DNA of 64,000 nucleotides from NCBI RefSeq assembly GCF_012027555.1, contig NZ_SNUQ01000003.1:1-64000 (forward strand), in the 5' to 3' direction. This stretch comes from Thermococcus sp. CX2. Its GTDB lineage: Archaea; Methanobacteriota_B; Thermococci; Thermococcales; Thermococcaceae. Both the position numbers and the translations under genes were made by a program. The notes beneath the pieces were generated by a model, which had not been told where the DNA came from, searched no databases, and saw only the letters and a program-made list of their open reading frames with translations. Shown piece by piece: positions 2,318-42,681 of this stretch; the stretch's first letter is position 1, and every line of letters begins with the position of its first letter.

Positions 2318-2330
2318 TGATGTCACCTCC

Positions 2331-5300: not shown

Positions 5301-5885
5301 ACCGTACCCATAATCTGGGTGATACAGGCCAATCTCTGGATATTCAATTGGATTCCCAGCCCTGACGTCCAATCCCTTTATTTTGCAGATAAAGAGGAAC
5401 ATGTTCTTGTAGTTCTCATAGCCTCCGTTGGCCCAATACTTCACAATCCTGATGTAACTCCTGGCATCCCTAAAAACTCCAAAAGGCAGAATTTTTCCCA
5501 TCGCTTCTATAATGGTCTGAATTCTGTTTATCCACTTCTTTACGCTTTCAGGATTTGTTCCGTAAGACATGTTAGCTCCTTTTACCCTGCTCATTCTAAA
5601 ATTGCCAAGCTTTGCGAGGGAAAACAGGGAAGAGCCGCCAACTAAGATTACAACGTCCTTATCTTTATAATCAAGCTCTGTAAGCGAGAGAGGATCTCCT
5701 CTAACGTCTATTAAAACTATGTCTGCCCAATCAACATAGCTCTGGAGGTTATCCACCTTGTGAAGGTCGTGAGCAAATATTAGCTTGACATCTGCATGCT
5801 CCTTAACATCCTCAATTGCCCTCACGATGCTTCTGTTCACAATGGTCGAGATTAAGAGAATCTTCACCCTCTTATTTTCTGCCAT
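2331..5885 (-). CDS. CobN/ChlH-family chelatase large subunit, second copy (1184 aa)
   Basis: Large porphyrin/corrin-binding subunit of a class I chelatase (CobN/BchH family). The hallmark CobN region is present as [12 protein letters not shown] followed by [12 protein letters not shown] and [13 protein letters not shown] (about residues 510-560). Later come [36 protein letters not shown] and FGPTSTEYN, all normal family landmarks, and near the C-terminus [13 protein letters not shown], where the usual DYYQFHGGM motif sits. It overlaps the preceding cobN by 22 bases and its ATG has a GGGAGGTGG site. It is a diverged paralogue of its neighbour. The substrate is probably a tetrapyrrole or corrinoid, which is inferred only. 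Confidence 0.88.
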
Positions 5886-8800: not shown

Positions 8801-9619
8801 CACCCCATAAACCTGAGTCATGTAGTCAACGCCCTTCTCGCTTTTCTTCCAATCCTCGAGGGACTGGTGGTAGGATCTTATCGGGGCGAAGACCGGGACG
8901 TTGAGCCTCTGCAGGTTCTTCAGCTCGACCGTGCCGAAGGAGATTAAGCTCACGAGGGCTTCTACAACCGGCTTTCCATCCTTCATGAAGAACTCCTCAA
9001 CGGCCTCGCTCTTCTCCCTTCCAAGCCCCGTCCTTGAGTCTTTTCCGTAGGTGAAGACCGGGATTACCCCAAAGCCTTCCTCCTCAAGGGCCCTGATGAG
9101 CTCTCCAATTGGTCTGAAGTCCTTGTAGAGCCAGGTGCTCCTCCAGAAGAGAACTCCAATGAGGGGCTCCTTCCCGTAGGCTTTCAGGTATTCGTCCAGG
9201 CTTTCAAAAAGGCCCAGTTCAGGGTGGTAAATGCCGTGCATCGGCACCTCTTGGGGATCTTCGTAGTCGACCTCCGCTCCAGCGAGGCCCGCAAGGAACC
9301 TGACCAGGTTCCTCAGGTTCTTCTCGCCCCCGAGGACGTAGTAGGTCTTGGCCTTGATCAGAACCTCCTCCGGGACGTTTGCCAGGCCCTCCAGGCCGGC
9401 GCAGGCGATGACTTTAGCTTTGCTTTCTTTAATTCTCTCCTCCACTATTCCAGGAAGCTCGTGGGCGTAGATGAAGATTACATCCGACTTCTCTATCTTG
9501 TCCAGCTCTCTCTCACAGTTCTGGTCGGTGAGCACGAGCCCATCTATTCTCTCCTCCCCAAGTATCTCTTCTAGCAGGGGCAGGGGCCTCGCGCCGTATC
9601 CCAGGATGAAGCATATCAT
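5864..9619 (-). CDS. CobN/ChlH-family chelatase large subunit, first copy (1251 aa)
   Basis: CobN/BchH-family chelatase large subunit. It has VPPHQWWAVYRW, VMVHFGTHGYLEFRPGKG and VGLSPSCVPE in the central domain, then [36 protein letters not shown] and FSAPPSAYGAGVN. Two cysteine features stand out: CAGARCDGKVC just before the PPHQWW motif, and DPTNCCCYFAHHGGF where most CobN proteins have DYYQFHGGM. The ATG at 9619 overlaps the ATPase stop (ATGA) and has GGAGGTGATTC upstream. It probably works with the ChlI-ChlD protein. Corrin, heme-type or nickel tetrapyrrole substrates are all possible. Confidence 0.88.
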   Translation of the reverse strand: MICFILGYGARPLPLLEEILGEERIDGLVLTDQNCERELDKIEKSDVIFIYAHELPGIVEERIKESKAKVIACAGLEGLANVPEEVLIKAKTYYVLGGEKNLRNLVRFLAGLAGAEVDYEDPQEVPMHGIYHPELGLFESLDEYLKAYGKEPLIGVLFWRSTWLYKDFRPIGELIRALEEEGFGVIPVFTYGKDSRTGLGREKSEAVEEFFMKDGKPVVEALVSLISFGTVELKNLQRLNVPVFAPIRSYHQSLEDWKKSEKGVDYMTQVYGVIIPEVAGAIEPIFIAGTRNIEGYKKGEPYEEHMKYLARRVKKWVELRKKPKDEVRIAIVLINPPCKGLEANVAVGLGLDVPESIVRLLHRLKEEGYYVGEDLPENGEELIKLILERKAISEFRWTSIEEIVKSGGAIDFVGLEEYLEWFNELPEDLRERIVRDWGRPEDVLAGKVDKALVGMVHDGKFVVPGIRFGNVFITPQPKFGCAGARCDGKVCRILHDPRIVPPHQWWAVYRWITRKFKADVMVHFGTHGYLEFRPGKGVGLSPSCVPEASLDDVPHLYVYAVSNPMEGVIAKRRSYATLIDHIYPPMGMAEVLDDLDSLLTQYAKAKNLGDEARRKKIYEQILEKAKENRLRIADPEDEERTIEEIHRYVELMRGSQINLGLHIFGYPPEEPERLAEYVATAMAYDSYASPSIKRVIAEAVGLDYDEMKKNPLGTTNGFTNRELLEIFHRIAVKSLERLLKGESFEVIAEEIEKFGFKVKKEEKLEETFRKALEVAEKIIECKKEHEGFLKGLSGEYVEPGPSGAITRGKFEILPTGRNFYAVDPRTLPTKAAWQIGVETAEKLLEEYMKKHGKYPESVGQVLWSIDGYKADGEQIAQILYLIGVRPVWKGDVVAGLEVIPLEELGRPRIDVLVRISGIVRDTLPNYIYLIDEAIEKVVTLDEPPEMNYIRKHYVEHIKKFIELGKSFEEAQRFARFRVFSAPPSAYGAGVNLAVESSGWRSDEDLAKVWIQWSGYAYGKDTFGVEAYDSLVLNLKEVDIINRNHISDEHDPTNCCCYFAHHGGFKAAVDALTGKNAEVVQTDTRDISDTKIVDMKVELERVVRAKLLNERWIEEMKKHGYRGASEFSKKINHLYGWEATTKLVEDWVFDEIAQKYVLDEEMRRWFEEHNPYAIEEIARRLIEAYERGLWETSDELIERLMEVYSEIEGILEESLGEGEVQGGTIEIYTAEDDEHWSENIREVEELWQKIRG

Positions 9620-10389
9620 TGAATCACCTCCGTTCTGGGGAGTATGAGCCTGAAGCCGTCGAACTCAAGGACGCACACGGGGACGCCGTAGACATCGCGG
9701 AGTATCTCCTCCCGCAGGACTTCAGGCGGTCTCCCGACGGCCCTGATCTTGCCCTCCCTGACGAGGGCTATCCTGTCGGAGTAGAGGGAGGCCAAATTGG
9801 GGTCGTGGAGCGTCATGATGGCCGAGATGCCCTCCTCCCGCGCGAGCCTCTTGACTATCCCGAGGACTTTGACCTGGTTCTTGAAGTCAAGGTGAGCCGT
9901 TGGCTCGTCGAGGAGCAGAACCCTCGGCTCCTGGACGAGGGCCCTCGCTATCAGAACCAGCTGCATCTGACCGCCGCTCAGCTGGGTGTAAGGTTTATCC
10001 TTAAAGCGCTCGAGTCCGAGGAGCCTGAGCTTTTCGAGGGCCTTCTCGTAGTGCTCTTTTCTCGGGCTCTCAAAGGGACCGAGCTGGGAAGCTAAACCCG
10101 TGACGACCACGTCCAGAACCGTGTAGGAGAAGGGCGGCGTGTGGGACTGTGGGACGTAGCCGGCCAACTTGGCCCTCTCCCTGATGGGCAGCCCGTGGAA
10201 GTCCCGGCCGTCAATGAAGACGCACCTCTCCTTGGGCTTCAGCAGCCCGTAGATGGCCTTCAGTATGGTGGTCTTCCCGCTTCCGTTGGGGCCGAGGAGC
10301 GTCACGACTTCCCCTTCCTTCACCTCGAGGGTGACCCCTTCGATGCTGAAATCACCGTAGCTGAACGACAGGCCTCTGACCTCAAGCAT
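9616..10389 (-). CDS. ABC importer ATPase, BtuD/FepC-like
   Basis: ATP-binding subunit of a B12/siderophore-type importer, 257 residues from MLEVRGLSFSYGD. Walker A is LGPNGSGKTTI, the ABC signature is LSGGQMQLVLIARAL, Walker B is RVLLLDEP, and the switch histidine follows in MTLHDPNLA. The start at 10389 overlaps the permease stop by eight bases, which indicates translational coupling. It would energise import of whatever the lipoprotein two genes upstream binds. The family handles cobalamin, heme, ferric siderophores and similar chelates, so the sequence alone does not give the ligand. Being fused by overlap to a CobN gene suggests a tetrapyrrole or corrinoid. Confidence 0.93.
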   Translation of the reverse strand: MLEVRGLSFSYGDFSIEGVTLEVKEGEVVTLLGPNGSGKTTILKAIYGLLKPKERCVFIDGRDFHGLPIRERAKLAGYVPQSHTPPFSYTVLDVVVTGLASQLGPFESPRKEHYEKALEKLRLLGLERFKDKPYTQLSGGQMQLVLIARALVQEPRVLLLDEPTAHLDFKNQVKVLGIVKRLAREEGISAIMTLHDPNLASLYSDRIALVREGKIRAVGRPPEVLREEILRDVYGVPVCVLEFDGFRLILPRTEVIQ

Positions 10390-11434
10390 CCCATCCACCG
10401 CCCGTCTTCCTGAGCAGGTAAGCGAAGAAGGGAATTCCAAGGAGGGTCGTTATTATACCGATCGGTATCTCGTAGGTCGCCACAGACCTCGCGAGCGTAT
10501 CTGCTAGGGCCATGAACGAAGCCCCCAGGGTTATCGTCAGGGGTATCAGGGTCTTGTGGTCCGGACCGAAGGCCATCCTGACTATGTGGGGTATCATCAG
10601 CCCGACCCACCCGATTATACCGCAGAAGGCTATGGAGACGGCCGTTATCATGGAGACGATGACTATGAAGACGAACTTCAGCTTCTCGGTCTCGACACCC
10701 ACGATTTTAGCCTCCTCACCGAAGGAGAGCACGTTCAGCTGCCAGCGCATTGAGTATATCAGGAAACAGCCGACGAGGATCACCGGGAAGGCCACTCTGA
10801 CCGAGCCCCAGTCCGAGTTGGCGAAGCTCCCCATGAGCCAATAGACGATGCTCGCCAGCTTGTCGTGCTCCATAAGGAACTTGAGGAGGGATGTTAAAGC
10901 TGAAAAGAGGGCGTTGACTATGATTCCAGCGAGAACGAGCGAGACTGGGGTTATCCTCCCGCCGACCCTCGCCAGCGAGGTCGTTATGAAGACCGCGAGG
11001 AGCGCGAAGGCGAACGCTGAAGGAGTCACACCTACGCCAACGGAGAGGCCTATAGCTAAAGCCGCGCCGAAGGCAGCCCCGGAAGAGATGCCAAGGATGT
11101 AGCTGTTGACGAGGGGGTTCCTGAATATGGCCTGCAGGACGGCACCCGAAATGGCAAGGGCCGAGCCGACGAGCATGGCCATCAGGACGCGGGGGAGGCG
11201 TATCTCAAAGAGTATGGTCTGGTAAACGCTCGGGTAGGGGATTGTGACGGAGAAGGATATCTTTCCAAGGGTTAAAGTTTTCAAAACTTCGGAGATGATC
11301 TGAGCCCCTTTAAGGAGCACCATACTCACGACGGCGGAGGGAGGAATTGGATAGGTTCCTATACACAGGCTTACGATGAGGGCAAGAACCGGGGAGAGCA
11401 AAAAGGAAAGGTGGAGGGCCTTCCTCATGCTCAC
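10382..11434 (-). CDS. ABC importer permease, BtuC/FecCD family
   Basis: Membrane subunit of a type II ABC importer, 350 residues with about ten predicted helices. Family landmarks include LPRVLMAMLVGSALAISGAV, FRNPLVNSYILGISSGAAFG, GIIGWVGLMIPHIVR and YEIPIGIITTLLGIPFFAYL. FecCD proteins usually have 320-350 residues, so it looks intact. Its start overlaps the binding-protein stop by four bases (ATGA) and its end overlaps the ATPase start by eight. It forms the channel with the ATPase encoded immediately downstream. Confidence 0.94.
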   Translation of the reverse strand: MSMRKALHLSFLLSPVLALIVSLCIGTYPIPPSAVVSMVLLKGAQIISEVLKTLTLGKISFSVTIPYPSVYQTILFEIRLPRVLMAMLVGSALAISGAVLQAIFRNPLVNSYILGISSGAAFGAALAIGLSVGVGVTPSAFAFALLAVFITTSLARVGGRITPVSLVLAGIIVNALFSALTSLLKFLMEHDKLASIVYWLMGSFANSDWGSVRVAFPVILVGCFLIYSMRWQLNVLSFGEEAKIVGVETEKLKFVFIVIVSMITAVSIAFCGIIGWVGLMIPHIVRMAFGPDHKTLIPLTITLGASFMALADTLARSVATYEIPIGIITTLLGIPFFAYLLRKTGGGWDA

Positions 11435-12561
11435 CCACCCTGGTAGAACGGGCTGTAGAATTTCTCAATCAGCTCGTCCCTGACCGACTCCCAGCTCTGG
11501 TAGCGGTCGGGGTAGATTACGTTGGCCATCTGGTAGAGGCCGACTATTATCCTCGGGCCCCAGTCGAGGTAGCCCTTTGAACCTGCGAGGATGCCGTAGA
11601 CGTGTCCTTCCCTCACGGCCTTGATTTCCTGCCACCTTGAGTCATTTTTAATGCCGTTCACGGCGCTGTCAAGCTTGTCCTGGCTGAATGACGTCACAAT
11701 TAAAACGTCCGTGTCGTTGCCCCAGTAGGCGATTATCTTCTCGAGGTCGAGCTTGGGCCACTGGGTATCGAAGGTCATGTCGAAAGCTAAGTTGTGGGCA
11801 CCGACGAGCTCCACCATGCTCGCCCACGCGCTTCCGTTGGCGTAGACAGTGACCGGGCCCGCGATGTCCTTGGGGGCGCTTATGAGAAGGGCGTTCTTCC
11901 TCTCACTCTCTGGAATCTGGGCGGCGGTTTCCTTCACGGCGCTGAGCTTCTCCTCCATCCACCCGGCCAGCTCACCGGCCTTCTCTTCTTCATCAAAGAC
12001 CTTTCCAAGGAGCTCGACGACCTCCACGTTATCCTCGATGGTCTTAGCAGTGAGCGCTATGACGGGTATGCCGAGCTCTTCCGCCTTCTGTATAGTCTCG
12101 GCATCGGCGTACTTGCCGCCGTACCAGTCGATTATTATGAGGTCTGGATTTAAGCCGACGACGGTCTCCCAGTTGAGGCCCTTGAAGTTGCTGCCAACGA
12201 CGGTCTTGTTCTTCACATCATCCGGGAGGTAGGGGTCATAGGGGACGTACTTGCCTATGCCGATTATCCTGTCCTGGACGCCGAGGACGCAGAGTATCTC
12301 CGCCCAGTAGCCGGAGAGCACTATCACCCTCTCGGGCGGCTTATCTATGGTGACGGTCCTTCCCGCGAAGTCCGTGACGGTTATCGGGTACTTGGGAGCG
12401 GCAGTGGTGGTTGTCTGAGATGAAGTCGTCTCGACGTGACTGGAGGGGGGCGCGGTGGTAGTCGTCGTGGCGGTCCCGCCGCTTATACAGCCGCTCGCCA
12501 CGACGCCAAAAATCAAAACCCCGACCAGAAACAGGGTGAATATCTTTCCGCGGGATTTCAT
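11431..12561 (-). CDS. Substrate-binding lipoprotein of the BtuF/FhuD type
   Basis: Extracellular receptor of the importer. From the chosen ATG (12561) the protein begins MKSRGKIFTLF, with a hydrophobic signal segment ending in the lipobox VVASGC. A threonine-rich spacer follows as a flexible tether. The mature part has the class III binding-protein pattern: ITVTDFAGRTVTIDKPPERV, then NPDLIIIDWYG and a long helix between two lobes. About 376 residues, normal for archaea. It is the first gene of the operon. The start was chosen because GGTGAG lies at the correct distance; a start 15 bases earlier is possible. Ligand unknown. Confidence 0.92.
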   Translation of the reverse strand: MKSRGKIFTLFLVGVLIFGVVASGCISGGTATTTTTAPPSSHVETTSSQTTTTAAPKYPITVTDFAGRTVTIDKPPERVIVLSGYWAEILCVLGVQDRIIGIGKYVPYDPYLPDDVKNKTVVGSNFKGLNWETVVGLNPDLIIIDWYGGKYADAETIQKAEELGIPVIALTAKTIEDNVEVVELLGKVFDEEEKAGELAGWMEEKLSAVKETAAQIPESERKNALLISAPKDIAGPVTVYANGSAWASMVELVGAHNLAFDMTFDTQWPKLDLEKIIAYWGNDTDVLIVTSFSQDKLDSAVNGIKNDSRWQEIKAVREGHVYGILAGSKGYLDWGPRIIVGLYQMANVIYPDRYQSWESVRDELIEKFYSPFYQGG

Positions 12562-12635
12562 TGTGCTCACCACCATGTTGTGCTACTAATTTTCAACTTA
12601 GTAATACAAAACCCGTGGAGTATAGCTGACTTTTA

Positions 12636-31005: not shown

Positions 31006-31284
31006 TTGGGGCACACGGTATACTATCGCACGCGCATTGAGCAGTGGGATGACTTTAGGCGGTTCATCGAGAGAATTTGCGAGGGCATCGGCTATGAGTT
31101 AATAGAAACGAACGACTCCATAATCATACTCCCAGAATGCCCAGGCGTCGAACCCCTCGAAATAAAGAGGGAGGGGGATGGTTTCGTCAAGACGAACTTA
31201 GTCGAACCCTGCCACTCCATCTACCTGCTCGTCATTCACTCGCTCTGCTCCTTTGGTTCGGTCGAGCTCTGGGAAGATAAGTAA
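31006..31284 (+). CDS. Small protein of unknown function, TTG start (92 aa)
   Basis: A 92-residue soluble protein reading GHTVYYRTRIEQWDDFRRF, then a beta-rich half ending SFGSVELWEDK. Start TTG at 31006 is chosen because GGTGATA lies at the right distance and a TATA-like TTTTTAAAG is 35 bases upstream (30967-30977). A longer frame from 30952 would cover the promoter. The last 49 bases overlap, tail to tail, the membrane protein gene on the minus strand. I do not recognise a function; the fold looks ferredoxin-like. Confidence 0.65.
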   Translation: MGHTVYYRTRIEQWDDFRRFIERICEGIGYELIETNDSIIILPECPGVEPLEIKREGDGFVKTNLVEPCHSIYLLVIHSLCSFGSVELWEDK

Positions 31285-31985
31285 ATCTCGATTATCTTCG
31301 TTGGCACCGCGCCCCTAAGGCGCCTGTCCTCAACGATGAGCTTCACGACCCTTCCGACTTCGAGGTCGTCAACTGCATCCACCCAGTAGTGCCCGGGCTT
31401 GACGTTGGCGGCGATGTCGTCATGAACGAAGACCTTCACCGCGTTGCTCCTTATCTCCTCCACCACTCCATACGTCCAGTCTCGGCCGTATTTGCTCTTG
31501 AAGTACCACCTGAATGCTATGACTGCTATGAACACCAGCACAAGGTAGCCGTAGTAGTGGTAGATGCTAGTGGCGATTTTCCTGATGAGGGCATAGCCGA
31601 GGAACGCGCCGAAGGAGATCAGTGAGATATAGTAGTAGAAGAACCTGTACGGCTCTGGGTCCACGAAGAACTCCCAGTTCCTGACTATTGTATAGCGCAG
31701 GTAGAGGAAGTAAATTATGGCTATCCCAACGATCCAGGGGATGCTGAGTCTGAGAAAGAGCACTGTGAGGTTGACGATGAGGTACAGCAGGAACCCCATC
31801 TGGAGCCTGAGGCTCAGGAACTCGTGGACTGTCAGTGGTTTTTTGACGAGCTTTTTGAGGTGTTTGAACTGGGGGGGACTTTTGGTAGGAGTTGGTAGAA
31901 TTATTGGTTTTATTGCTCTTTTGGCCCTCTTGACGCTATATTCAGCGAATTCTCCGACTGAGTAAAGAAAATCAATTATTTTCAT
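31236..31985 (-). CDS. Membrane protein of unknown function, four to five helices
   Basis: A 249-residue protein with a basic N-terminal region (about residues 1-60), hydrophobic segments near 65-80, 83-98, 115-135 and 140-160, and a soluble C-terminal domain of about 80 residues rich in beta strands (YGVVEEIRSNAVKVFVHDDI), which could be OB-like. It resembles the uncharacterised archaeal DUF2101 family, a recall I cannot check here. It ends the minus-strand cluster of prepilin-like genes, 19 bases after the previous one, so it may belong to that operon. Confidence 0.65.
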   Translation of the reverse strand: MKIIDFLYSVGEFAEYSVKRAKRAIKPIILPTPTKSPPQFKHLKKLVKKPLTVHEFLSLRLQMGFLLYLIVNLTVLFLRLSIPWIVGIAIIYFLYLRYTIVRNWEFFVDPEPYRFFYYYISLISFGAFLGYALIRKIATSIYHYYGYLVLVFIAVIAFRWYFKSKYGRDWTYGVVEEIRSNAVKVFVHDDIAANVKPGHYWVDAVDDLEVGRVVKLIVEDRRLRGAVPTKIIEIYLSSQSSTEPKEQSE

Positions 31986-32004
31986 AGTTTTTCACCGTCC
32001 TACT

Positions 32005-33075
32005 TTAGGATCCCATGATGGCTTCGTAACTATATGGATCGAGTATAATGTTATATTCTGAGCCGGGCACGGGTGATCCGTCTAAACACTGATCGTCTAT
32101 GGCACATCTCAGATAGTAGTAGTCTATACTTGTGGAATCTGGGGAAGGTGCCGTTCCAAGAGCCCTTAGGGTTTCTAGTAGAACATTATCTAAAGAGGGC
32201 ACCATTAATGTCACTAGGCCAATGGGAAGGGGAGTTTCAGTCCCTAGGTCCTTCTGAAATTCTCTAGCCAGAGATAGGTAGCGTGCGTGGTTGTTCGTAT
32301 TGCCCTCAAAGCGTTCTAGGATTGATGGATATGCTATTTCATCGCTTTCTATTCCGATATAGCACTGCTCCAGTGCAGCGTTGTCTAGCTCTGAAACGTT
32401 GTAGTATCCATATTCGCTCCCTGGGAACGGGATTCTGCATGGTTCTATTACGCGGGTATAAAGTCCATTCAGCTTCCTAACTATAAATGGGTCCTCAAAT
32501 CCAGAAATACTCATGATGGCGTAGATATAGCCCTCTTGGGGAAGATCACCGGTGTACATGACTTTTCCTGATGAGTCCACTATGGTGATGTCTTTTACTT
32601 TGATTCTTACTGCTAAGTGGAAAGAATCTAGAGGGGCTACTGTAACCTCAAGGTGATTAGAGACGAATTCCTCGGGGTTGTCTGGAGTTATTGCTATTCC
32701 TTGAGCTTGTAGGTAGTCCACCATGTTTTCAAACCAGTATTTTAGTGTGAAGTTTTCCATTTGGGCTTGTGATATTCCGTTGATTTCCCCGTAGATTATG
32801 AGATCTGCCATGGTTTTGGAAGCATTATCGACGAATCCGTTGTTTATCACGTATTCTGTCATGAGTAGGTATGACTTTTTCATGCTGAGATCCACAGCGT
32901 TCCTTAGGTCATCTTGAAGGCTTAGTATGCTGAAGTATTCCCTCTCAGCGTTGATTCTATCATTTTGGGCGGAGATTATTCCAAAGGATGCATTCTCATA
33001 AGTGGCCAAGAGAAGTAGTAAGGGAATTATAAGGATGAGGACGGTAGTGTTCAGCAGGAAAGCCCTACGCCTCAT
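32005..33075 (-). CDS. Prepilin-like membrane-anchored protein (356 aa)
   Basis: Begins MRRRAFLLNTTVLILIIPLL: basic residues, then one N-terminal hydrophobic segment as in type IV prepilins, although +5 Glu/Asp is absent. The rest (about 330 residues) is predicted outside the cell, with a helical start (QNDRINAEREYFSILSLQDD) and a beta-rich body, and four cysteines. GGAGGGG precedes the ATG at 33075; the gene starts two bases after the 852-residue gene ends. Sixth prepilin-like gene of the cluster. Base composition is lower in GC than the purine genes. Function not recognised. Confidence 0.72.
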   Translation of the reverse strand: MRRRAFLLNTTVLILIIPLLLLLATYENASFGIISAQNDRINAEREYFSILSLQDDLRNAVDLSMKKSYLLMTEYVINNGFVDNASKTMADLIIYGEINGISQAQMENFTLKYWFENMVDYLQAQGIAITPDNPEEFVSNHLEVTVAPLDSFHLAVRIKVKDITIVDSSGKVMYTGDLPQEGYIYAIMSISGFEDPFIVRKLNGLYTRVIEPCRIPFPGSEYGYYNVSELDNAALEQCYIGIESDEIAYPSILERFEGNTNNHARYLSLAREFQKDLGTETPLPIGLVTLMVPSLDNVLLETLRALGTAPSPDSTSIDYYYLRCAIDDQCLDGSPVPGSEYNIILDPYSYEAIMGS

Positions 33076-33077
33076 CT

Positions 33078-35636
33078 TTAACCCCTCCATATCCTAAGAG
33101 TTACTTCTATAGGGCCAAGAGATGTGGGGACATTTCTAATGCCTATTGACTTCGCTGAGAGCCCCTGGAGTCTCACCCGTATTGGATTGTCCTCGGTTCC
33201 TGGTAGCTGGGTGTAATCCTCCCTTGCCCCAAGCTGGACGAAGAGTCGGAATATTGCATCATCCAACGCATACTCAGAGGGCTTCAACGCCGATGCATTT
33301 ATTGGTATGGGTGTTTCGCCGGGTTTGCAGTTTCCTATAACTACCGTGTCTTGGCCTATCGTACCCGTTAGGTTGTACCAGTATATTAAATTGTAGCCAC
33401 AGGCGTTGTCTTGAGAGTAATGGAGGAATATTCTGCCGTAGGGGACATAGCCGTACAGGAAATAACGGACGAGGGCCCTGCTGTCGTCGTATCTAAATGT
33501 GTAATCATCTGAACTGCTTATGATTTTGAATGTATTCTCTTGGCCGGGAACCATTATTTGGTCTGTTAACCTCCTATAAGCAACACGTATCAAATAATGA
33601 TCTAGTGGAAATTCTAGGAAATTGGCTTCTGCGTTAGCTCCCTCATAGAGATCTGTAGTACCGGAAGGATATCCCCTAAAGTATATTGCACTCCATATAT
33701 CAACGTACCACGGGACTGCCTTTTCTGGAAGATAATATGAGAAGGTCATTCCCGTGTATGTGCTTGCCCAGCTTACCGGCTCTCCCGTGGGATCAAGGGT
33801 CTTGAACTCCTCCTGTGGAATGTAGAATCTGTTTATGCTGACATCGCTATCGTATTGTATCCGGATAAACGAATCGGGATACCCATAGAGTCTTCTTGGA
33901 TTGTTCCAAGTTGTATTGTAATCTTGACCGGCGTATCTAACGACTCGGTCATAGCTTGGGTCATAATAAGCGTCGAGCATTATAACCAGGTTGAAATTCT
34001 TTTTGTTGAGGTTTTCCAGAGTAGTGTAGTTTAATATCCCCCCAAGGAGGGTATCGTTGGATATTGTAAGTGTTGTTAAACTTCCATCGAGGGTGGTGTT
34101 CTTGTACACTAAGTTTAGGGTGGTTCCGTCGGAATAATATATCCTTACCTCATGAACCCCCTCAACTGTTAAAGTGGCCTCAATTCCCTTTATCTGTCCT
34201 GGAACAAATAAGGAGTTTAGGTAGTATATACCAGTGGCTGAACTGTTGATATCGTATAGTTCTACCAGTCCAGGGTCCTGGACACTAGGGTCGGTGGTTG
34301 TATATTTTAAATAAAGCCAGCTACCGCTGCCGAAGCCTATCTCCTCGTCTCCGTAGCTTGTAAAGGTGGCCTGTACTTCGTTTGAACCTGCGTGGAAGAG
34401 TGAACTCACATTTTGGTCGTACGGATTGGTGAGTAGATTCCCATTTATTATGACCTGCATTGTTTCATAATTCGATCTCTGGGCCGCGTGCCATTGTCCG
34501 TCAAATATTGAAGCATCGAAAGGTAAAGTTATGTTAAACCCAATCTGAAGGGTATTGTATGGAGATGTATAGTACGTTGCCTCTCTTATCTGGGGAGAGT
34601 TTGTATATACTTGTGAGGACTGAATGTAATCTTTTACGAACTTCCCTTTTTCCCTATGTCCTTGCCAAGTAACCTCTAAGTAAACGCCTCTGTTTAGGAG
34701 AATTTCAATGTAATTCCCATTGGTATAGTAGTAATAGAGTGCATAGATTTCATAAGTCTCGGTCAGGGTATTTCCTATGGGATCCCCCGAAAGATACGAA
34801 GTGCCTGCTATGATAATATACTTGTCAGAGTATACTCTGAATCTCCATACGATTTTATTATAAAGATCATAGACTACTTGGTTATTATTTAGGTTTTCGT
34901 TTATGCTGATTACTGAAGTGTCGTACGTTGCGATTAGTTGGAACTGACCAAAAGTTATTGTATCACTTGCTAGTGCAGTATTATACTCGAAGTTAAACTG
35001 CTGGACAGAAAGATCAAAGTTTTCGGATTCCTTAATACCTCCTGCTAGAACCCTCTGAATTCCTATCAAATCTTGCCTTACAAAGGAGCCCTTGGTGAGT
35101 TGAGCCTTGGCTACATATCCACGGGGAATCATGTTCTTGACGTATCCGCTAACCACAGTAGTGGCGACTCCAACATCCCTTGCGTTTTGATAGGAGTTAT
35201 CAAAGGTCAGAAATGGGCTGGTATAGTTGTTGATTATGAGTTGGTACTTGTACTCCCGAGAGAGTCTTTCTAGTAGATAACTAAGAATCACCTCTGCCCT
35301 CTTCCGATATGAGGGATTTGTTGCTTGTATGTCATTAATAGCCCAATACGTGGCGACGATATCTAGAGGTGGCATATCTGGAGTAACATACGTTAAATCA
35401 AGAGTTCCGTTCTCTATCCACTTATCAATTACACTCGGATCAACCAGCTGATTGAGTGCAACTGTTCTCATGATTTCCAGAATGCCCTGCGCTACTGCTT
35501 TATTTTGGTTCTGAAGCGCCGGAACATAAATTCGTGAGGGCGTCCCTGTTACAGAAGCTATGCTGACTACTATCATGAGAACTAACAGGAGTGACAGTAA
35601 TGCATCCAGAGTAAATATGAATCCTCTCCTTTTCAT
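33078..35636 (-). CDS. Large prepilin-like surface protein (852 aa)
   Basis: Begins MKRRGFIFTLDALLSLLLVL: a basic RRG processing site and a hydrophobic helix with an acidic residue at position +6, as in class III signal peptides. The following 820 residues are rich in Tyr, Asn, Thr and Ser, mostly beta-type, and contain GVHEVRIYYSDGTTLN-like strands, consistent with an extracellular adhesin or filament-associated protein. The stop of the previous gene overlaps its ATG. Unusually long for a pilin, so it may be a tip or minor component. No enzymatic motif was seen. Confidence 0.72.
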   Translation of the reverse strand: MKRRGFIFTLDALLSLLLVLMIVVSIASVTGTPSRIYVPALQNQNKAVAQGILEIMRTVALNQLVDPSVIDKWIENGTLDLTYVTPDMPPLDIVATYWAINDIQATNPSYRKRAEVILSYLLERLSREYKYQLIINNYTSPFLTFDNSYQNARDVGVATTVVSGYVKNMIPRGYVAKAQLTKGSFVRQDLIGIQRVLAGGIKESENFDLSVQQFNFEYNTALASDTITFGQFQLIATYDTSVISINENLNNNQVVYDLYNKIVWRFRVYSDKYIIIAGTSYLSGDPIGNTLTETYEIYALYYYYTNGNYIEILLNRGVYLEVTWQGHREKGKFVKDYIQSSQVYTNSPQIREATYYTSPYNTLQIGFNITLPFDASIFDGQWHAAQRSNYETMQVIINGNLLTNPYDQNVSSLFHAGSNEVQATFTSYGDEEIGFGSGSWLYLKYTTTDPSVQDPGLVELYDINSSATGIYYLNSLFVPGQIKGIEATLTVEGVHEVRIYYSDGTTLNLVYKNTTLDGSLTTLTISNDTLLGGILNYTTLENLNKKNFNLVIMLDAYYDPSYDRVVRYAGQDYNTTWNNPRRLYGYPDSFIRIQYDSDVSINRFYIPQEEFKTLDPTGEPVSWASTYTGMTFSYYLPEKAVPWYVDIWSAIYFRGYPSGTTDLYEGANAEANFLEFPLDHYLIRVAYRRLTDQIMVPGQENTFKIISSSDDYTFRYDDSRALVRYFLYGYVPYGRIFLHYSQDNACGYNLIYWYNLTGTIGQDTVVIGNCKPGETPIPINASALKPSEYALDDAIFRLFVQLGAREDYTQLPGTEDNPIRVRLQGLSAKSIGIRNVPTSLGPIEVTLRIWRG

Positions 35637-37090
35637 TAGGTCTCACCTCCCCAGTCGTCCCACACTTCGACTCTCATGAGAAACGTATCGAATTTTGGAT
35701 CCAGGAATGGTTCTAGACTCGGCGTGATAGTTACATGTAGAGAATCTCTACTCCACCCAGATAAGGAGTACATCCATAGGCCTATAACTTCGCCTTCTTG
35801 GATTTCATAAAGATCCTTTAGGGGGATGCTTACAGAGAGGTTTCCGGAATACATTTTTATTGAGCCATTCTTGTAGACTAAGACTGCCTTTAATCCCTCA
35901 TTGGACTCGTTTCTGTAAACCTTAAGTCCCGCGAGTCTTGATCCACTCATGATGACAAACTCCACGCTACCGATGTCATCCGGGGCAGAAATTGTAAAGA
36001 TTCCACTTTCAGGTATCTGGTACTTGAGTTCGCCATAGATTAATGGCATTGTAGTAGAGGGCCCGGCTAGGAGGTTGTAGTGAATTCTGCTCACAATGGC
36101 GACCCTATGTGCTACTTCAATCCACTGCGATCTTTCCTTTGAACTCTTTATCTCGTCGGGATCAGTTACTATCTCCTTGTCTATTACAGCGAACATATAA
36201 GTAGGCTCATTTTTTTCTACGAGTTCATCATATGTTGTGTAGTTTGCCCAGATCCCTGGGCGAGAATTGTCGTATGCGGAGACTGTTATAACAACGTTTC
36301 CAATACCAACGAACTTAAAACTGTACGGGCATTCCCCACCTTGTCCACCAAAGTTCAACTGAAAGTTGCTAACCTCTGGACCAGTTATGTACATTTCTAC
36401 GATCGCATTTGAGGGTATGACGTAATTCTCGGTGTATTGTCCTCGTTTGGCAGTGAGATACACCGTCTGACCGGTTATGAATTTTATATAATCTCCCTCG
36501 ACCAAGTTAATATTATTGCCCCGTTTAAGATCACAGATGGACTCGTTTATATATGTGTTCCCTCCCCGCCTTATTTCGATATAAGTTACCACGAACACAT
36601 TGTTTCCATTTGGATCCCCCGTTATTCTGAAATTTATGCCTGGGGGGTTATCTTTGGGGTTCTCAAAAGTCTTGTTATACAGGTATATTTTGGGGAAATC
36701 CCCGGATATTCCAACTCGGAATTCAGAAAGATAACCCTCAAGAAGAACGTCCTTGTCGTTGACCATTTTGGCGAGAATGCTTTTTAATGCCTCCTTAGAT
36801 TCATTGAGCGCTATCAATTTATCGTAGTCCAAGGGATACATACTATTGTTCTTTCTCAGCCCTACAACCTCTGCATTAGACGGCTCAAGTACCCAGTTGC
36901 TTGGCTCCCCGGGACTTTTGGTCAATAAATCCAGCATATTGTCAGCTAGGTTTGCCCTTTCGTACCAGCCCAGCATGGCGGTTATATCGTCCTTCAGTGC
37001 GCTGGATGTGCTGGTTATGGCTCCAAGCATGAGGATAACTATGACCAATGAGAGCATCGCGTCAAAGGACAGCAGCTGACCCCGCCTCAT
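35636..37090 (-). CDS. Prepilin-like surface protein (484 aa)
   Basis: Begins MRRGQLLSFDAMLSLVIVIL, a good class III signal pattern (RRG then Q, Asp at +6, hydrophobic helix). The ectodomain has several predicted beta-sandwich-like stretches and N-glycosylation sequons (for example NESK, NKTF, NESN). It overlaps the preceding small pilin by four bases and the following 852-residue gene by one base. The start codon and reading match the same N-terminal plan as the other five genes, which argues for a shared peptidase and export route. Confidence 0.75.
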   Translation of the reverse strand: MRRGQLLSFDAMLSLVIVILMLGAITSTSSALKDDITAMLGWYERANLADNMLDLLTKSPGEPSNWVLEPSNAEVVGLRKNNSMYPLDYDKLIALNESKEALKSILAKMVNDKDVLLEGYLSEFRVGISGDFPKIYLYNKTFENPKDNPPGINFRITGDPNGNNVFVVTYIEIRRGGNTYINESICDLKRGNNINLVEGDYIKFITGQTVYLTAKRGQYTENYVIPSNAIVEMYITGPEVSNFQLNFGGQGGECPYSFKFVGIGNVVITVSAYDNSRPGIWANYTTYDELVEKNEPTYMFAVIDKEIVTDPDEIKSSKERSQWIEVAHRVAIVSRIHYNLLAGPSTTMPLIYGELKYQIPESGIFTISAPDDIGSVEFVIMSGSRLAGLKVYRNESNEGLKAVLVYKNGSIKMYSGNLSVSIPLKDLYEIQEGEVIGLWMYSLSGWSRDSLHVTITPSLEPFLDPKFDTFLMRVEVWDDWGGET

Positions 37091-37560
37091 TTTCTCATCA
37101 CATCCACGTTTATCTCAACCTCTTTCCCACCAAAATACAGCTTACCGTCTCTCATCTGAACGTTCGTCTTCGAAGCGAGGTCGTTGACTATATACTGCTC
37201 TATGTTGGTCTCTATGCTCGTCTCCGGGAAGGTGCCCCCTGCGTATAGTATGGTGACGTTAACCTGTATTCTGTCGGCCAGCTCTTTCATGGTGAGGGAT
37301 GCGAGCTGGAATGAATAGTATGTGTAGTTGTTTGCGGTTATTATTGCGTTCAGAGGGGTGTACTCGGTTTCGTTGGTCACCACCCCAGTGTTCAGGTACG
37401 CACAGGCATTGGACGCAGAATTCCTTACATAGACTACCAGTGAGATGTCCCTGTTTTCGTTCAGGTAGGGAGGCACTATTATTAGAATGCCCGTGAGGAT
37501 TATCGCGATTATGAAGAGGCTCTCAATCGCAGTCTGGGCCTTACGGCGAGACATCGACAT
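37087..37560 (-). CDS. Small prepilin-like protein (157 aa)
   Basis: Begins MSMSRRKAQTAIESLFIIAI: RRKA before the expected cleavage, Q-T-A-I-E with Glu at +5, then a hydrophobic helix. This is the classic type IV prepilin layout. The C-terminal part is short and beta-rich, ending EVEINVDVMRK. It overlaps the previous gene by 20 bases and the next by four. A second in-frame ATG at 37554 is also possible. Likely a pilin or pseudopilin; whether it forms a filament is unknown. Confidence 0.8.
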   Translation of the reverse strand: MSMSRRKAQTAIESLFIIAIILTGILIIVPPYLNENRDISLVVYVRNSASNACAYLNTGVVTNETEYTPLNAIITANNYTYYSFQLASLTMKELADRIQVNVTILYAGGTFPETSIETNIEQYIVNDLASKTNVQMRDGKLYFGGKEVEINVDVMRK

Positions 37561-37981
37561 AGAGCCTCTCCTCCGTCTCGTTGTACGTTGCCACTATGTG
37601 GAATTCCTTTTTTGCCGCGGTGAGGGTGACTGAACTCTCCCTGTAAATCGGCACTGGGCTCTTCTGGATGACGAGATATTTTCTCCCCGCTATCGTGGCG
37701 TTTATCATGATAGTATCGTTGGAGGGCACGAGTGTGACTGTGACTTTGTCGCCCGCATCTAGGGACATGGACAGTTCTTTCTTGATACTAAAGCCGTCTC
37801 CAACCGCGTAGACTTTAGTAACGGAATCCCTAACGTCTATTGAGAACACTTTGAGTTTCGTAATCACATCGAAGGTTTCGGCGTAGCTCGTCTCGCTGCT
37901 GGCAATATAGACTAAGTTGACCATCGTCAAGGTTATCAGAGTAACCGCAAAGAGGAAGTCTAGACTTATCTGTGCTCTCAT
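37541..37981 (-). CDS. Small prepilin-like protein (146 aa)
   Basis: Begins MRAQISLDFLFAVTLITLTM, with A-Q cleavage context, Asp at +5 and a hydrophobic helix; then a beta-rich 110-residue ectodomain. The ATG at 37981 is chosen for GGTGGC upstream and because it places the signal at the N-terminus; the longer frame would run through the upstream gene. It starts two bases after the previous stop. Same layout as the adjacent prepilin-like genes. Confidence 0.8.
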   Translation of the reverse strand: MRAQISLDFLFAVTLITLTMVNLVYIASSETSYAETFDVITKLKVFSIDVRDSVTKVYAVGDGFSIKKELSMSLDAGDKVTVTLVPSNDTIMINATIAGRKYLVIQKSPVPIYRESSVTLTAAKKEFHIVATYNETEERLYVDVSP

Positions 37982-37983
37982 CT

Positions 37984-38619
37984 TCAGCCACCGGGATTGA
38001 TGTTTATTCTCAGCTCGCCCTTGGCCGAGTCGAACGTCCAGCTCTCCGGCTGCTCCGGGTTCCACTCAACGACTATCTTCAGGGTTGGGGGGAGGTTTGT
38101 GGGATCTATCTCCAGGCCGTACAGCGTAATAGTTCCAACTGTGATGCTCCCGGATGGTGACCATACGGATGAGTTGCCGTAGGGCACCGCCTGATACATC
38201 GACCTGCTCCAGAAAACGTTCTTGTTCCCGCCCGTCAGAACGGGAGTAAACCCCGTGCCTGTGACCGTAACATAGGTGCCGTTACCATCGCTACTATAGT
38301 TGCCATAGGTTATGAATATTTTCGGACTCTCCAGGTTCAGGGCCTTTTCGAGCATGCCCGCATCCCTTAAGTATGTCAGCTTGACGTATGTAGTGGACTT
38401 GGCACCCGGTCCCTGGGCGTAGACCTGGCTTATCGTGTTGGAAATAGCGTTGGCGAGGTTCTTCTCCTCAAGACTTACCTGAATACGGAGGGTTTCGATT
38501 GAAGTTGAACCTTCCCGGAAAGTAATGTTGTTCACAGAGTAAAGTAACAGTATAAGCATTATACCGAATATAAGCATGAACTCCAGTGATATCTGGCCAC
38601 GCCTAGCTTTTTGCATCAT
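37984..38619 (-). CDS. Prepilin-like protein (211 aa)
   Basis: Begins MMQKARRGQISLEFMLIFGI, the best class III signal in the cluster: RRG before Q-I-S-L-E and Glu at +5. The ectodomain contains TLRIQVSLEEKNLANAISNT, typical of a pilin alpha-helix spine, then a beta domain ending GELRININPGG. GAGGGGAG precedes the ATG at 38619 and a TATA box lies about 40 bases upstream, so this gene may begin its own transcript within the cluster. Confidence 0.82.
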   Translation of the reverse strand: MMQKARRGQISLEFMLIFGIMLILLLYSVNNITFREGSTSIETLRIQVSLEEKNLANAISNTISQVYAQGPGAKSTTYVKLTYLRDAGMLEKALNLESPKIFITYGNYSSDGNGTYVTVTGTGFTPVLTGGNKNVFWSRSMYQAVPYGNSSVWSPSGSITVGTITLYGLEIDPTNLPPTLKIVVEWNPEQPESWTFDSAKGELRININPGG

Positions 38620-38654
38620 ATATTCTCCCCTCAATAGTGATTAGTTGTGAGCAT

Positions 38655-38667
38655 CTATTTAACCGTT
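38655..38667 (-). promoter_or_regulatory. Internal TATA box in front of the prepilin-like genes
   Basis: On the minus strand the bases read GGTTAAATAGAT, about 40 bases upstream of the ATG at 38619. A start 25 bases downstream would give a leader near 16 bases with the GAGGGGAG site inside it. The element overlaps the end of the upstream coding region. Confidence 0.5.
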
Positions 38668-39288
38668 ACTCTCCGATTTTTCGGCCTTTACTACCGCAAA
38701 AAGGCTCGTTCCGATTTTTTTAGTTGCAACTCCAAAGTAATCACCGCTGAAGATTTTGAATTTGTACCTTTCTGGAGGCAGGGAGTGCTTCCTCACGAGC
38801 TCGTCCAGTTCGTCAATAAAGAACTGGGTTAGCTCATAGTACATCAAATCGAGCTTTTCCTTTGTGTAGTCTCTAATGAAGAGAAGGGCAGGGAGCAGTG
38901 CGAGGCCGATGATAAAGTAGGGCTGGCTGAAGAGGACGGAAGCTACAATTGTCGCGGCTATAGCTCCTCCGATTACAGCGTAGGAGGCTTTTTCCGCATT
39001 CTTTATCCTCTTGGCTTCCTTTACTTTACCCTCCCAGATGTCGAGAAGTGCTGGGTTGTAGAAGTCGAAGGCCGTGTGGCGCTTCCCCTTGGCTATTCTT
39101 TTTCGGATTAAATCGTCCCAGTCGTCTTGATAATAAATGACCTCTCCGTGTATCTTTGCTCTCTCGGCATCTAGTGAGGAGATAATTCTGATTATATCCT
39201 CGGCGCTCTCGTGGGCTATGTGGGAGTAGACTTCCTTCTCGTCGAGCTCTAAAGCGACCTCGACGGAGTCCTTTATTGGCTCGGTCAT
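38659..39288 (-). CDS. Two-helix membrane protein of unknown function
   Basis: A 209-residue protein. About residues 1-95 are soluble and charged, with SVEVALELDEKEVYSHIAHE near the start. Two close hydrophobic segments follow (near 100-135: AVIGGAIAATIVASVLF, then FIIGLALLPALLFI), and then a soluble tail of about 70 residues. It has no prepilin signal. Its start overlaps the FtsZ/CetZ-like stop by four bases, so the two proteins are probably made together; a membrane partner for the GTPase is a natural guess. Function not recognised. Confidence 0.7.
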   Translation of the reverse strand: MTEPIKDSVEVALELDEKEVYSHIAHESAEDIIRIISSLDAERAKIHGEVIYYQDDWDDLIRKRIAKGKRHTAFDFYNPALLDIWEGKVKEAKRIKNAEKASYAVIGGAIAATIVASVLFSQPYFIIGLALLPALLFIRDYTKEKLDLMYYELTQFFIDELDELVRKHSLPPERYKFKIFSGDYFGVATKKIGTSLFAVVKAEKSESNG

Positions 39289-40376
39289 TCTTCACCACCT
39301 GGGTATATGTCATCGAAGTCCGGCAGGCCACTCAGGAGTTCCTTCTTCCTGGTTTCCGCTTCGGCCTTCGCCTCCATGAAGGACCGAGCGTAGTGCTTTG
39401 CGGTCAGAACTATGTCCTCTATGCTCTTGCTGTCGTAGATGCCGCTGAGGAGTGTAACTACCTCTACCTCTCTCTCGCGCGGGTCTGGATAGAAACCCCT
39501 GAATATCTGTTTGCCCCTTATCTTGTTGGTGAGATACTCTAAGGCCTCAAATATCTCAGTGGCTTTGAGTATCTCTGGTGGGCCGTGTATTGCAACCAGC
39601 CCGTAGAGGGCGGATTCTATGTTCGCATCGAGGTAGAGCCCCTCGTTCTCGAAGGACTTCATTATGAGCCGGGAGAGGCTTTTGACCTTGTTCGCGTCGG
39701 CCTTTGCGTAACCAATCGTCGCAAAGCTTCCAAAGGCCTTCAGCACGAATTTCAAGTCGCTCGCGTCAAGGGTCTGCTCCCCTGGCACGTCAACGAGGGC
39801 CAGTAGGGAAGCTATGCGCTCGACTATGGTGTAGTTTATCCTCTCGTAGGCCTTGGTTATGTCGTCGCCGCTTTCTTTCAGTTTGTTGTTGTCGATGGCT
39901 ATTATGGAGTCTGCTATCTTTGAGAGCTTGTCGATGGTTATGGCCGCGTTGATGGTGGGCCTTATGCCCTCCTCTCTGAGGGGGAGTGCCCCGATGGCTA
40001 CAACAAGGGAATCTGGGTATTCCTCCTTGAGTGCCTGGGCCAGAACTGGTGTTCCCCCCGCGCCAGTTCCGCCTCCGAATCCAAAAGTGAGGAAGAAGAC
40101 GTCAACGTCCTCATAGCCGATTATCGAGCCTATCTTGCGCATGACTATTTGCAGGTCGCGCTTCATGGCTTCCCTGCCGAGGAGGGGGTTGGCGTTTACA
40201 CCTTTGCCACCTGTGAGACCTTCTCCTATGAGTACCCTTCTCTCCGGCGGGATGTGCTTGAGGTACTCTAGGTCGCCTTTGGATGTGTTTATGGCGAGAG
40301 TTTCGAAGTCCACCAGCGCGAAGAGGTCGGCTATCTTAGTTCCACACTGACCAACCCCTATGATTATAGCCCTCAC
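39285..40376 (-). CDS. Tubulin/FtsZ-superfamily GTPase (CetZ-like)
   Basis: A 363-residue cytoplasmic GTPase that would polymerise into filaments. The N-terminus MRAIIIGVGQCGTKIADLFA is the GTPase start of the superfamily; the tubulin signature loop is FGFGGGTGAGGTP (GGGTGAG at 101-107). TLDASDLKF (202-210) matches the T7 loop region, whose acidic residue is needed for polymerisation-coupled hydrolysis. It most resembles the archaeal CetZ group, which shapes cells and surface structures rather than dividing them; this is family knowledge, not shown here. It follows the toroid protein gene by seven bases. Confidence 0.87.
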   Translation of the reverse strand: MRAIIIGVGQCGTKIADLFALVDFETLAINTSKGDLEYLKHIPPERRVLIGEGLTGGKGVNANPLLGREAMKRDLQIVMRKIGSIIGYEDVDVFFLTFGFGGGTGAGGTPVLAQALKEEYPDSLVVAIGALPLREEGIRPTINAAITIDKLSKIADSIIAIDNNKLKESGDDITKAYERINYTIVERIASLLALVDVPGEQTLDASDLKFVLKAFGSFATIGYAKADANKVKSLSRLIMKSFENEGLYLDANIESALYGLVAIHGPPEILKATEIFEALEYLTNKIRGKQIFRGFYPDPREREVEVVTLLSGIYDSKSIEDIVLTAKHYARSFMEAKAEAETRKKELLSGLPDFDDIYPGGEE

Positions 40377-40383
40377 GACTTAA

Positions 40384-42609
40384 TCACCCCACGACTATAA
40401 CGCGCACCCTACTGTTCTCGTTAAGAAGGACAAGCGCGTCTCCCCTAAGGTATCTAATGAACCCTGTTGTGAATATTTCTTTTACGATTTCGGCGTTTTC
40501 TGGCTCGTAGAATATGAACAGCACGACGCCCTTAGGGGTCTTGCCAGGGATGAGTACCACTGCTTTGTCCGTTGGAACGGTGACGTTGCCCACCGTGACG
40601 GTTCCGTTCTCAACGTGGAACCTTAGGTAGGGGTTGTACTCCCTTATGCTGTATTCTCCAAAGTTCGCCATCACTATGTAGCTCTCTTCGCCGATGGTTG
40701 TGGAGTTGGCCTCGATAAATCCTCCTGCGAAGAGGTCGTTCAGCGTGGTGACTATCTCACTCACGCTCTCATTGTCCATTCCAGGCGCTATGATGTGGAA
40801 GACGTCCTCGTCGAGGGCCCTTTCAACGTCGTAGAGGTCGACTGGCGGTATGTACTGGAAGCGCGAGAGGTAGAGTATCGCGCTCGCTATCTCTATAGTA
40901 TTGTTTTCTATCAACCCGCTGTCGCGGGCGTCCATGACAAAGTTAAGAGTTTCATTGGTGTAGTTGTAGCCGTACTTGAGGAGCAGATCTGTGGTCCTAA
41001 CAGTAAGCTCAACGCTTGGCGTTCCTGGATATTCCTTGTTCTTCTCCCATATGTAGTATACCTTCCAGTAGGACCATCCGCCATTGACCCTCTGTTCGAT
41101 GAGCCACTCGATGTGTGGTTGAAGCTCCTCCCGCGTGGCTATTCCATCGAGGGCCTCGAGGACAGTGATAGTGGTGAGGACATCTGGCTTGAGCATATAT
41201 GAGAAGTATCTCGTGGTAACGTACGTTCCCCAGCCGTCGTCCGTTATGCTCAGGAGCCAGTCCTTGGCCTTCTGAATTAGCGGGTCGTCGGGGCTCACGC
41301 CGAGATCGCGAAGGGCCTTGATGGCCAGTGCCGTTTCGTAGGGCTGAGGACCGAGAATGGTGTTGCCCCAGAGGCCGTAGTCGAGCTGAGCGTTGCGTAT
41401 GAGCTCTATCGCCTGCTCCTTCTCCTCATCTGTGAGGTTGTTGTACATCAGGAGAGTCTCAAGGGCGTAATAGTAGCCGACTGACATCCTGCCGTTCTGC
41501 TCCACCCAAGCCGCATCCCTCTGGAAGGCATCCCTCGCCCACGCTACGGCCCTGTCTATTGACTCCTTCTCCGGATAGCAGGCTTCTATAGCTTTGAGAG
41601 CGTAGTAGGTGGCCGTCTCGTCGGATGGATAGTTCAGATGGAAGCCCCATCCGCCATCGGGGTTCTGCATGTTTTTGAGCTCTTCACAGGGCATCTCGTA
41701 GGGGTTTTTGGTCTCGGTTAGTGGAGTTATCTCAAAGGACGTTGACAGCGCCATCAGGGCGAATGAGGTAGTGGCTATCATCTCCGTGGAGGAGAACATG
41801 TTTGGCGTGTTTATCCAGTAAACGAGATCGTTGGTGGTTTTCTTGTAGGATTCGAGCTTCGTAAGTATCCTTGCGGTGTCAAAATCAAGAGGCGCGGAGA
41901 GAACGAGGGCGTAGGTTAGCATCGCCCTCTCCTTCATGGTTATGGTATCGTTGTTGAGTAGGATGCTCTTGACTTCCTCTATGGTCCCGTTATCGACAGG
42001 ATAGCCGATACTGTGGTACGCGATGAGTTTAAGGGCAAGGGCTTCGTAGTTAGATATCTCACAGGAAGCGTTTTCGATGTACTTAACCGCGTCGCGGATG
42101 GTCTGGCTGTTGTAGCTGTAGCCGCTCTCTCCGAGGGCCCAGATTGCTACCACCGTTGGGTAACATGAGGTAGGTGTCTCTGGAACATAGCCCCATCCGT
42201 TTTGGTTTTTCGCCAAAATCAGGTATGAAATTCCCCTTTCAATGGCGGATCTTACCTTGAGTCTCCCCTCCGTTCCCAGATATGGGTAAGCCTTCTTCAA
42301 CGCTATAACAGCATAGGCGGTATCGAGAACGTTGCTCGTCTCACCCGGGTAAAAGCCCCAACCGCCGTCGGGATTCTGGTTGGTGAGGAGCGTTTCTACT
42401 AAGGCTTCTATGTTGGGATCAATAATAACGCCCGAGGTTAAATCATCAACCGCCCCTGATAACGCCATCAATGCAAGGCTTATTTCCCTCGTCTGCTTTG
42501 TAGAGTCGGCTGCATCCCTGAGGAACCTTGCAGAACCATCTATCGTGCTCGCGCTGACGACTGGGATCAGCATGAAAACTACCAGTATCAAAGCTAGAAC
42601 CTTCTTCAT
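40384..42609 (-). CDS. Secreted alpha/alpha-toroid repeat protein (squalene cyclase/prenyltransferase-like fold)
   Basis: A 741-residue protein with signal peptide MKKVLALILVVFMLIPVVSA. The mature part has repeats like those of terpene cyclases and protein prenyltransferases: QNPDGGWGFYPGETSN, QNGWGYVPETPTS, QNPDGGWGFHLNYPSD, TDDGWGTYVTTRY and VNGGWSYWKVY. The domain is exported and no catalytic DxDD motif was seen, so it is not a terpene cyclase. It is probably a binding or surface domain. The C-terminal 150 residues form a second domain. AGGGGTG precedes the ATG. It is first in the gene cluster. Confidence 0.75.
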   Translation of the reverse strand: MKKVLALILVVFMLIPVVSASTIDGSARFLRDAADSTKQTREISLALMALSGAVDDLTSGVIIDPNIEALVETLLTNQNPDGGWGFYPGETSNVLDTAYAVIALKKAYPYLGTEGRLKVRSAIERGISYLILAKNQNGWGYVPETPTSCYPTVVAIWALGESGYSYNSQTIRDAVKYIENASCEISNYEALALKLIAYHSIGYPVDNGTIEEVKSILLNNDTITMKERAMLTYALVLSAPLDFDTARILTKLESYKKTTNDLVYWINTPNMFSSTEMIATTSFALMALSTSFEITPLTETKNPYEMPCEELKNMQNPDGGWGFHLNYPSDETATYYALKAIEACYPEKESIDRAVAWARDAFQRDAAWVEQNGRMSVGYYYALETLLMYNNLTDEEKEQAIELIRNAQLDYGLWGNTILGPQPYETALAIKALRDLGVSPDDPLIQKAKDWLLSITDDGWGTYVTTRYFSYMLKPDVLTTITVLEALDGIATREELQPHIEWLIEQRVNGGWSYWKVYYIWEKNKEYPGTPSVELTVRTTDLLLKYGYNYTNETLNFVMDARDSGLIENNTIEIASAILYLSRFQYIPPVDLYDVERALDEDVFHIIAPGMDNESVSEIVTTLNDLFAGGFIEANSTTIGEESYIVMANFGEYSIREYNPYLRFHVENGTVTVGNVTVPTDKAVVLIPGKTPKGVVLFIFYEPENAEIVKEIFTTGFIRYLRGDALVLLNENSRVRVIVVG

Positions 42610-42642: not shown

Positions 42643-42656
42643 AAAATAAATAAACC
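42643..42656 (-). promoter_or_regulatory. TATA box of the toroid-CetZ-prepilin cluster
   Basis: On the minus strand GGTTTATTTATTTT lies about 35-45 bases upstream of the ATG at 42609, next to AAAAGG. Confidence 0.55.
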
Positions 42657-42681
42657 TTTTCCATAAAAAGGGAGAGAAAGC

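Follow-up and report, generated by a model that had tools for sequence, protein, structure and literature searches.

Why does a gene for a tubulin-superfamily GTPase sit among genes for prepilin-like surface proteins in Thermococcus sp. CX2, and what might its product do for a pilus? The ten open reading frames concerned occupy a single strand (−), running from position 42609 to position 31236 of the window, by which we mean the whole 64,000-nucleotide stretch of DNA that was analysed. The starts of g4 (38616), g5 (37981) and g9 (33075) were reassigned by comparison with orthologues, after which neighbouring genes either overlap or are separated by 2–42 bases; the description of ten tightly packed genes given by an earlier, sequence-only reading was thus borne out, as was their order (toroid protein, CetZ, membrane hairpin, small prepilins g4–g6, large g7–g9, DUF2101 protein). 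Across 61 loci of Thermococcaceae, representing six genera, the median intergenic gaps are −20 to +40 bases. Since a BRE/TATA-like element matching the consensus lies just 5' of g1, g1–g10 are likely to constitute one operon, and the reading of its products as a CetZ, a secreted toroid protein and six proteins resembling prepilins, conserved across the family, is supported. The features are as follows (arrows stand before residue +1):

42643..42662, −: BRE/TATA-like promoter 5' of the operon, AAAAGGTTTATTTATTTT, read directly and by resemblance to the consensus only
40384..42609, −: g1, secreted alpha/alpha-toroid protein, 741 aa, squalene-cyclase-like repeats, signal peptide, lacking DxDD
39285..40376, −: g2, CetZ tubulin-superfamily GTPase, 363 aa
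38659..39288, −: g3, conserved helical protein with membrane hairpin, 209 aa, overlapping cetZ; putative membrane partner
37984..38616, −: g4, small class III prepilin, 210 aa, RRG↓QISLEF
37541..37981, −: g5, small prepilin, 146 aa, RA↓QISLDF
37087..37560, −: g6, small prepilin, 157 aa, RRKA↓QTAIES
35636..37090, −: g7, large prepilin, 484 aa, RRG↓QLLSFD; the variable module begins here
33078..35636, −: g8, large prepilin-like surface protein, 852 aa, RRG↓FIFTLD
32005..33075, −: g9, divergent prepilin without the acidic residue, 356 aa, candidate tip cap, short form
31236..31985, −: g10, DUF2101 membrane protein, 249 aa (Pfam E=1.3e-75), restricted to the family

Elsewhere in the window, positions 389–12576 (−) hold genes for two adjacent CobN/Mg-chelatase-like proteins, an AAA+VWA protein and an ABC importer.

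Relation to described pilus loci

The sequence-only reading knew of no described system with this layout, which proved wrong. Clade 1 type IV pilus loci with an FtsZ-family GTPase and a squalene cyclase were reported from most Thermococci by Makarova et al. 2016 (PMC4858521), a paper that cites Szabo et al. 2007 for the first description of the Thermococci loci, and Brown & Duggin 2023 (PMC9856176) placed all Thermococcales cetZ genes in a pilus locus and proposed CetZ as a pilus scaffold. Both the layout and the main hypothesis were therefore already known, and the block is the known clade 1 minor-pilin/CetZ operon of Thermococcaceae. As in the window, the clade 1 locus of Thermococci comprises the FtsZ-family GTPase arCOG02202, the squalene cyclase arCOG03396 and at least five minor pilins; it also includes large DUF2341 surface proteins, which were proposed as tip adhesins, membrane proteins and two TadC-like platform proteins (PMC4858521). 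The present genome differs in having its ATPase and platform genes on another contig and in a g9 without DUF2341. The same pilin arCOGs were found in conserved order in 15/15 regions around Thermococcales cetZ (PMC9856176), to which we add a set of 61 loci, the paired architectures of g8 and g9, and their exchange.

Two further systems are comparable. In the haloarchaeal cetZ2-pilB2/C2 locus, too, a CetZ gene neighbours a type IV pilus regulon (PMC9856176), but the ATPase there belongs to clade 4F, the pilin set is another one, and ATPase and PilC are encoded in the same locus. The Epd/EppA pilus of Methanococcus maripaludis is also of clade 1, with class III pilins, EppA, MinD and a DUF2341 protein; it differs in that the parts of the sources available to us (PMC10133366, PMC3875500) list neither CetZ nor a toroid protein.

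Conservation in Thermococcaceae and sister families

Conservation of the cluster, which the sequence-only reading had named as a check, was found to be almost complete: g2–g9 keep order and strand in 61/61 loci, g1 is present in 59 (absent from two) and g10 in 60 (displaced in one). Of 94 family genomes, 91 have CetZ_C and 91 have DUF2101, whereas both are absent from all 21 genomes of sister families. A CetZ protein search of 80 family genomes gave a match in 80/80, the matches in G026 (75% complete) being of FtsZ level only, and those of a g8 profile were confined to family members. The same reading held that separate conservation of the genes would count against it. Within the family, pilins and CetZ occur together in all 61 loci; in 14 of the 21 sister-family genomes, however, a pilus ATPase homologue (34–41% identity) occurs without any CetZ_C protein, so the pilus machine is more widespread than its link to CetZ.

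As regards g10, one genome (G020:C1:1756298-1756915) has its DUF2101 gene some 35 kb away from the cetZ operon and on the opposite strand, and in another the gene is split into two frames (G016:C1:869437-870052), possibly through a frameshift or an assembly error. The g10 proteins of L050 (G060) and L117 (G022, a different genus) are 91% identical; as the CetZ proteins show no such closeness, a recent transfer is likely.

Assembly machinery encoded elsewhere

The expectation that the assembly genes would be found in trans was confirmed. Contig C2 encodes one pilus-type T2SSE ATPase together with two T2SSF platform proteins, as well as a DUF515 protein and another whose N-terminus resembles a signal peptide; an A24-type prepilin peptidase is encoded on contig C3 at 81.4 kb (Arc_PepC, E=5.6e-29), and four single QxxxEY prepilins on contig C1 are candidate major pilins. 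The genome accordingly has the ATPase and two TadC-like platform proteins typical of clade 1, and a dedicated prepilin peptidase with a putative range of substrates. We infer that the ATPase belongs to clade 1, as it is the sole pilus-type ATPase of the genome and agrees with the description in PMC4858521. A second T2SSE match (contig C3, 145 kb) was rejected as a pilus ATPase, being a PIN-ATPase-KH protein; with no second pilus-type ATPase in this genome, an archaellum is unlikely. In complete genomes of relatives the ATPase gene is likewise distant from cetZ, the nearest case noticed being about 31 kb away (G035).

The pilus ATPase of many relatives has an in-frame insert of about 500 aa at query residues 455–459, absent from the copy in this genome (for example, G033:C1:158228-161710 vs G000:C2:428813-430675), which we take to be most likely the known KlbA intein. 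A tandem extra pilus-type ATPase sequence was seen in one genome (G003:C29:1434-4646).

Prepilin-like proteins

The N-termini of g4–g7 keep (G/A)↓Q in 61 loci, with the acidic residue at +5 in g4, g5 and g6 and an aspartate at +6 in g7. The motif of g8, (G/A)↓F-x-F-T-L-D, also with D at +6, and that of g9, (G/A)↓(F/Y)-x-x-N, with a conserved asparagine and no acid near +5, are kept in the same 61 loci. These prepilin-like N-termini are conserved beyond chance, and by their Q+1 motifs g4–g7 give the locus the several class III prepilins of a clade 1 archaeal pilus; g4 is the only one of g4–g9 to score with the Pfam class III signal peptide (Class_IIIsignal). Processing of g8 and g9 is putative; they are divergent prepilins owing to F instead of Q at +1 and, in g9, the missing acid.

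At profile level, g7 and g8 have their first ~60 residues in common. Many beta-sheet domains are predicted for g8, and its fold search returned unrelated multi-domain beta proteins with TM-scores near 0.1, values that give no homology; the matches were taken to indicate no more than many beta-sandwich domains. NCBIfam yielded nothing useful beyond Pfam. We rejected the low GC content of g7–g9 as a sign of recent transfer: with averages of 0.46–0.47 across all 61 loci, it belongs in large part to the genes themselves.

The toroid protein

Behind its signal peptide, g1 has repeats that match the squalene-hopene-cyclase family (E~1e-15), and its gene product is named a squalene cyclase in PMC4858521. 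It might accordingly be a genuine squalene or terpenoid cyclase that makes membrane lipids near the pilus. We consider this very improbable, given the signal peptide and the absence of the catalytic DxDD motif of squalene-hopene cyclase from the six g1 orthologues inspected, where the site aligned to it reads mostly x-x-x-x-A/T-T-Y-Y in the commonest variants. That the first gene of the operon codes for a secreted protein could also point to a pseudopilus of the type II secretion kind, exporting proteins such as the toroid; but the toroid has a signal peptide of its own, it is missing from two genomes with an otherwise complete operon (L060 and L068; G021, G045), and the genome has single QxxxEY candidate major pilins, which together make a pseudopilus unlikely.

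Two architectures of g8 and g9 and their exchange

The large proteins occur in two forms. In nine loci, including that of the window, a g8 of 843–876 aa is paired with a g9 of 356–372 aa; in the other 52, a g8 of 640–791 aa is paired with a g9 of 458–1201 aa, and the length types of the two proteins match in 61/61 loci. The nine-locus form has extra residues in g8 (205–357), missing from the common architecture, whereas the 52-locus form has an insert in g9 after residues ~228–248 of the window's g9, which usually bears DUF2341. This domain was detected in 28/37 g9 orthologues, all of one architecture, and was not found in g8 or g9 of the window, so that it is a variable and not a defining feature of clade 1.

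In trees of g8 and of g9, built from their N-terminal parts with inserts and length-bearing columns left out, the nine loci fall into one clade each time (100). In the CetZ tree they are scattered, with five changes needed, and the CetZ+g3 tree rejects them as a single clade (p-AU 1.5e-5; the grouping was defined by length post hoc, for which the AU test makes no correction). In the window, g1, g2 and g4–g6 are nearest to L050 (76–96%), while g7–g9 are nearest to L094 (68–73%), with L050 near 51–53% for these three. Judged from these sequence comparisons, the tip-side genes seem to evolve apart from the CetZ side, with g8–g9 swapped between species as a unit. The paired architectures and their exchange are new as far as we found in the literature, though priority is not proven. 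A bactofilin-like stretch is present in some of the long g7 variants (L104:5688-8174, E=7.9e-08; L061:6193-8295, 7.7e-04), which again points to domain swapping on the tip side.

Exchange of the tip raises the question of which surface, virus or DNA it meets. The filament might chiefly be a competence pilus for DNA uptake, to which the operon would give a DNA-binding tip, instead of an adhesion pilus. Natural transformation of M. maripaludis depends on a type IV-like pilus whose parts include a DUF2341 protein, eppA and the epd pilins, and both T. kodakarensis and Pyrococcus furiosus figure as competent in the same paper (PMC10133366); the frequency of DUF2341 among g9 proteins agrees with this. 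However, variable and exchanged tip proteins are what would be expected of adhesins or virus targets, and g9 of the window is without DUF2341. We regard a role in DNA uptake, which is compatible with our main explanation, as the lesser possibility.

CetZ and the proposed role of the operon

CetZ (g2) has a Tubulin/FtsZ GTPase domain and a CetZ-type C-terminal domain, both over the Pfam cut-off (Tubulin, E=2e-30; CetZ_C, 1.2e-16), and is a CetZ protein; its best relatives of solved structure are PDB 4b46 and 4b45, the CetZ1 and CetZ2 of Haloferax (PMC9856176). The overlapping g3 is a candidate membrane partner. A scan of genome contigs for g3 outside the family used two peptide patterns, which distant relatives could escape; the titles of all 26 loci found name Thermococcus, Thermococcaceae, Thermococcales or Thermococci. 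A fold search with the predicted model gave no meaningful structural match (none at E<=0.001). By orthologue comparison, CetZ and g3 evolve slowly and g7–g9 fast, the former two presumably being the cytoplasmic side of the operon.

Our preferred explanation, which we consider probable, is that this operon encodes the minor pilins and the tip of the archaeon's single type IV pilus (clade 1 of Makarova et al.). The trans-encoded prepilin peptidase would cleave g4–g9, and the small pilins g4–g6 with g7 would form a priming complex. As a general rule, type 4 filaments start from a complex of minor pilins whose cap is a subunit lacking Glu5 (PMC10191384); g9, from whose motif the acid by which a pilin docks under its neighbour is likewise missing, fits such a tip cap, and the size and variation of g8 and g9 fit an exposed tip, on which they would bear the binding domains. 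The trans-encoded ATPase and platform would then lengthen a fibre of trans-encoded major pilins beneath the tip, while inside the cell CetZ may serve as a scaffold for placing or assembling the machine, with g3 as its membrane tether; the tip proteins diversify fast, and g8–g9 are traded between species together. The scaffold step is the least certain part, and we put it at somewhat short of an even chance. More tentatively, CetZ and g3 could be a dedicated membrane-bound cytoskeletal platform for one pilus with a swappable tip cartridge (g8 and g9, often g7 and g10), exchanged between genera on a CetZ platform that itself does not change.

Alternatively, CetZ may act in cell shape or another process and share a promoter with the pilins for co-expression, without a direct mechanical link. 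Elsewhere CetZ proteins function in rod shape and archaellum positioning (PMC9856176, PMC11621097), and the pilus ATPase homologues of sister families do without it. Yet CetZ and pilins are never apart in 61 loci of six genera, and cetZ overlaps g3 with the pilins in the same operon; we find mere co-expression rather doubtful. Given the permanent linkage, a CetZ–g3 scaffold is the simplest reading, even if linkage alone cannot separate it from co-expression. Counted against our main explanation are the sister-family ATPases without CetZ, F for Q at +1 in g8 and g9, the lack of a structural match for the g3 model, and a contact between CetZ and the pilus that we only infer. In the literature searched we found no experiment on CetZ in Thermococcus and no CetZ function established outside haloarchaea. 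A tubulin relative tied to a pilus operon throughout a family with a genetically tractable member offers a clean test of whether such a filament builds or positions pili.
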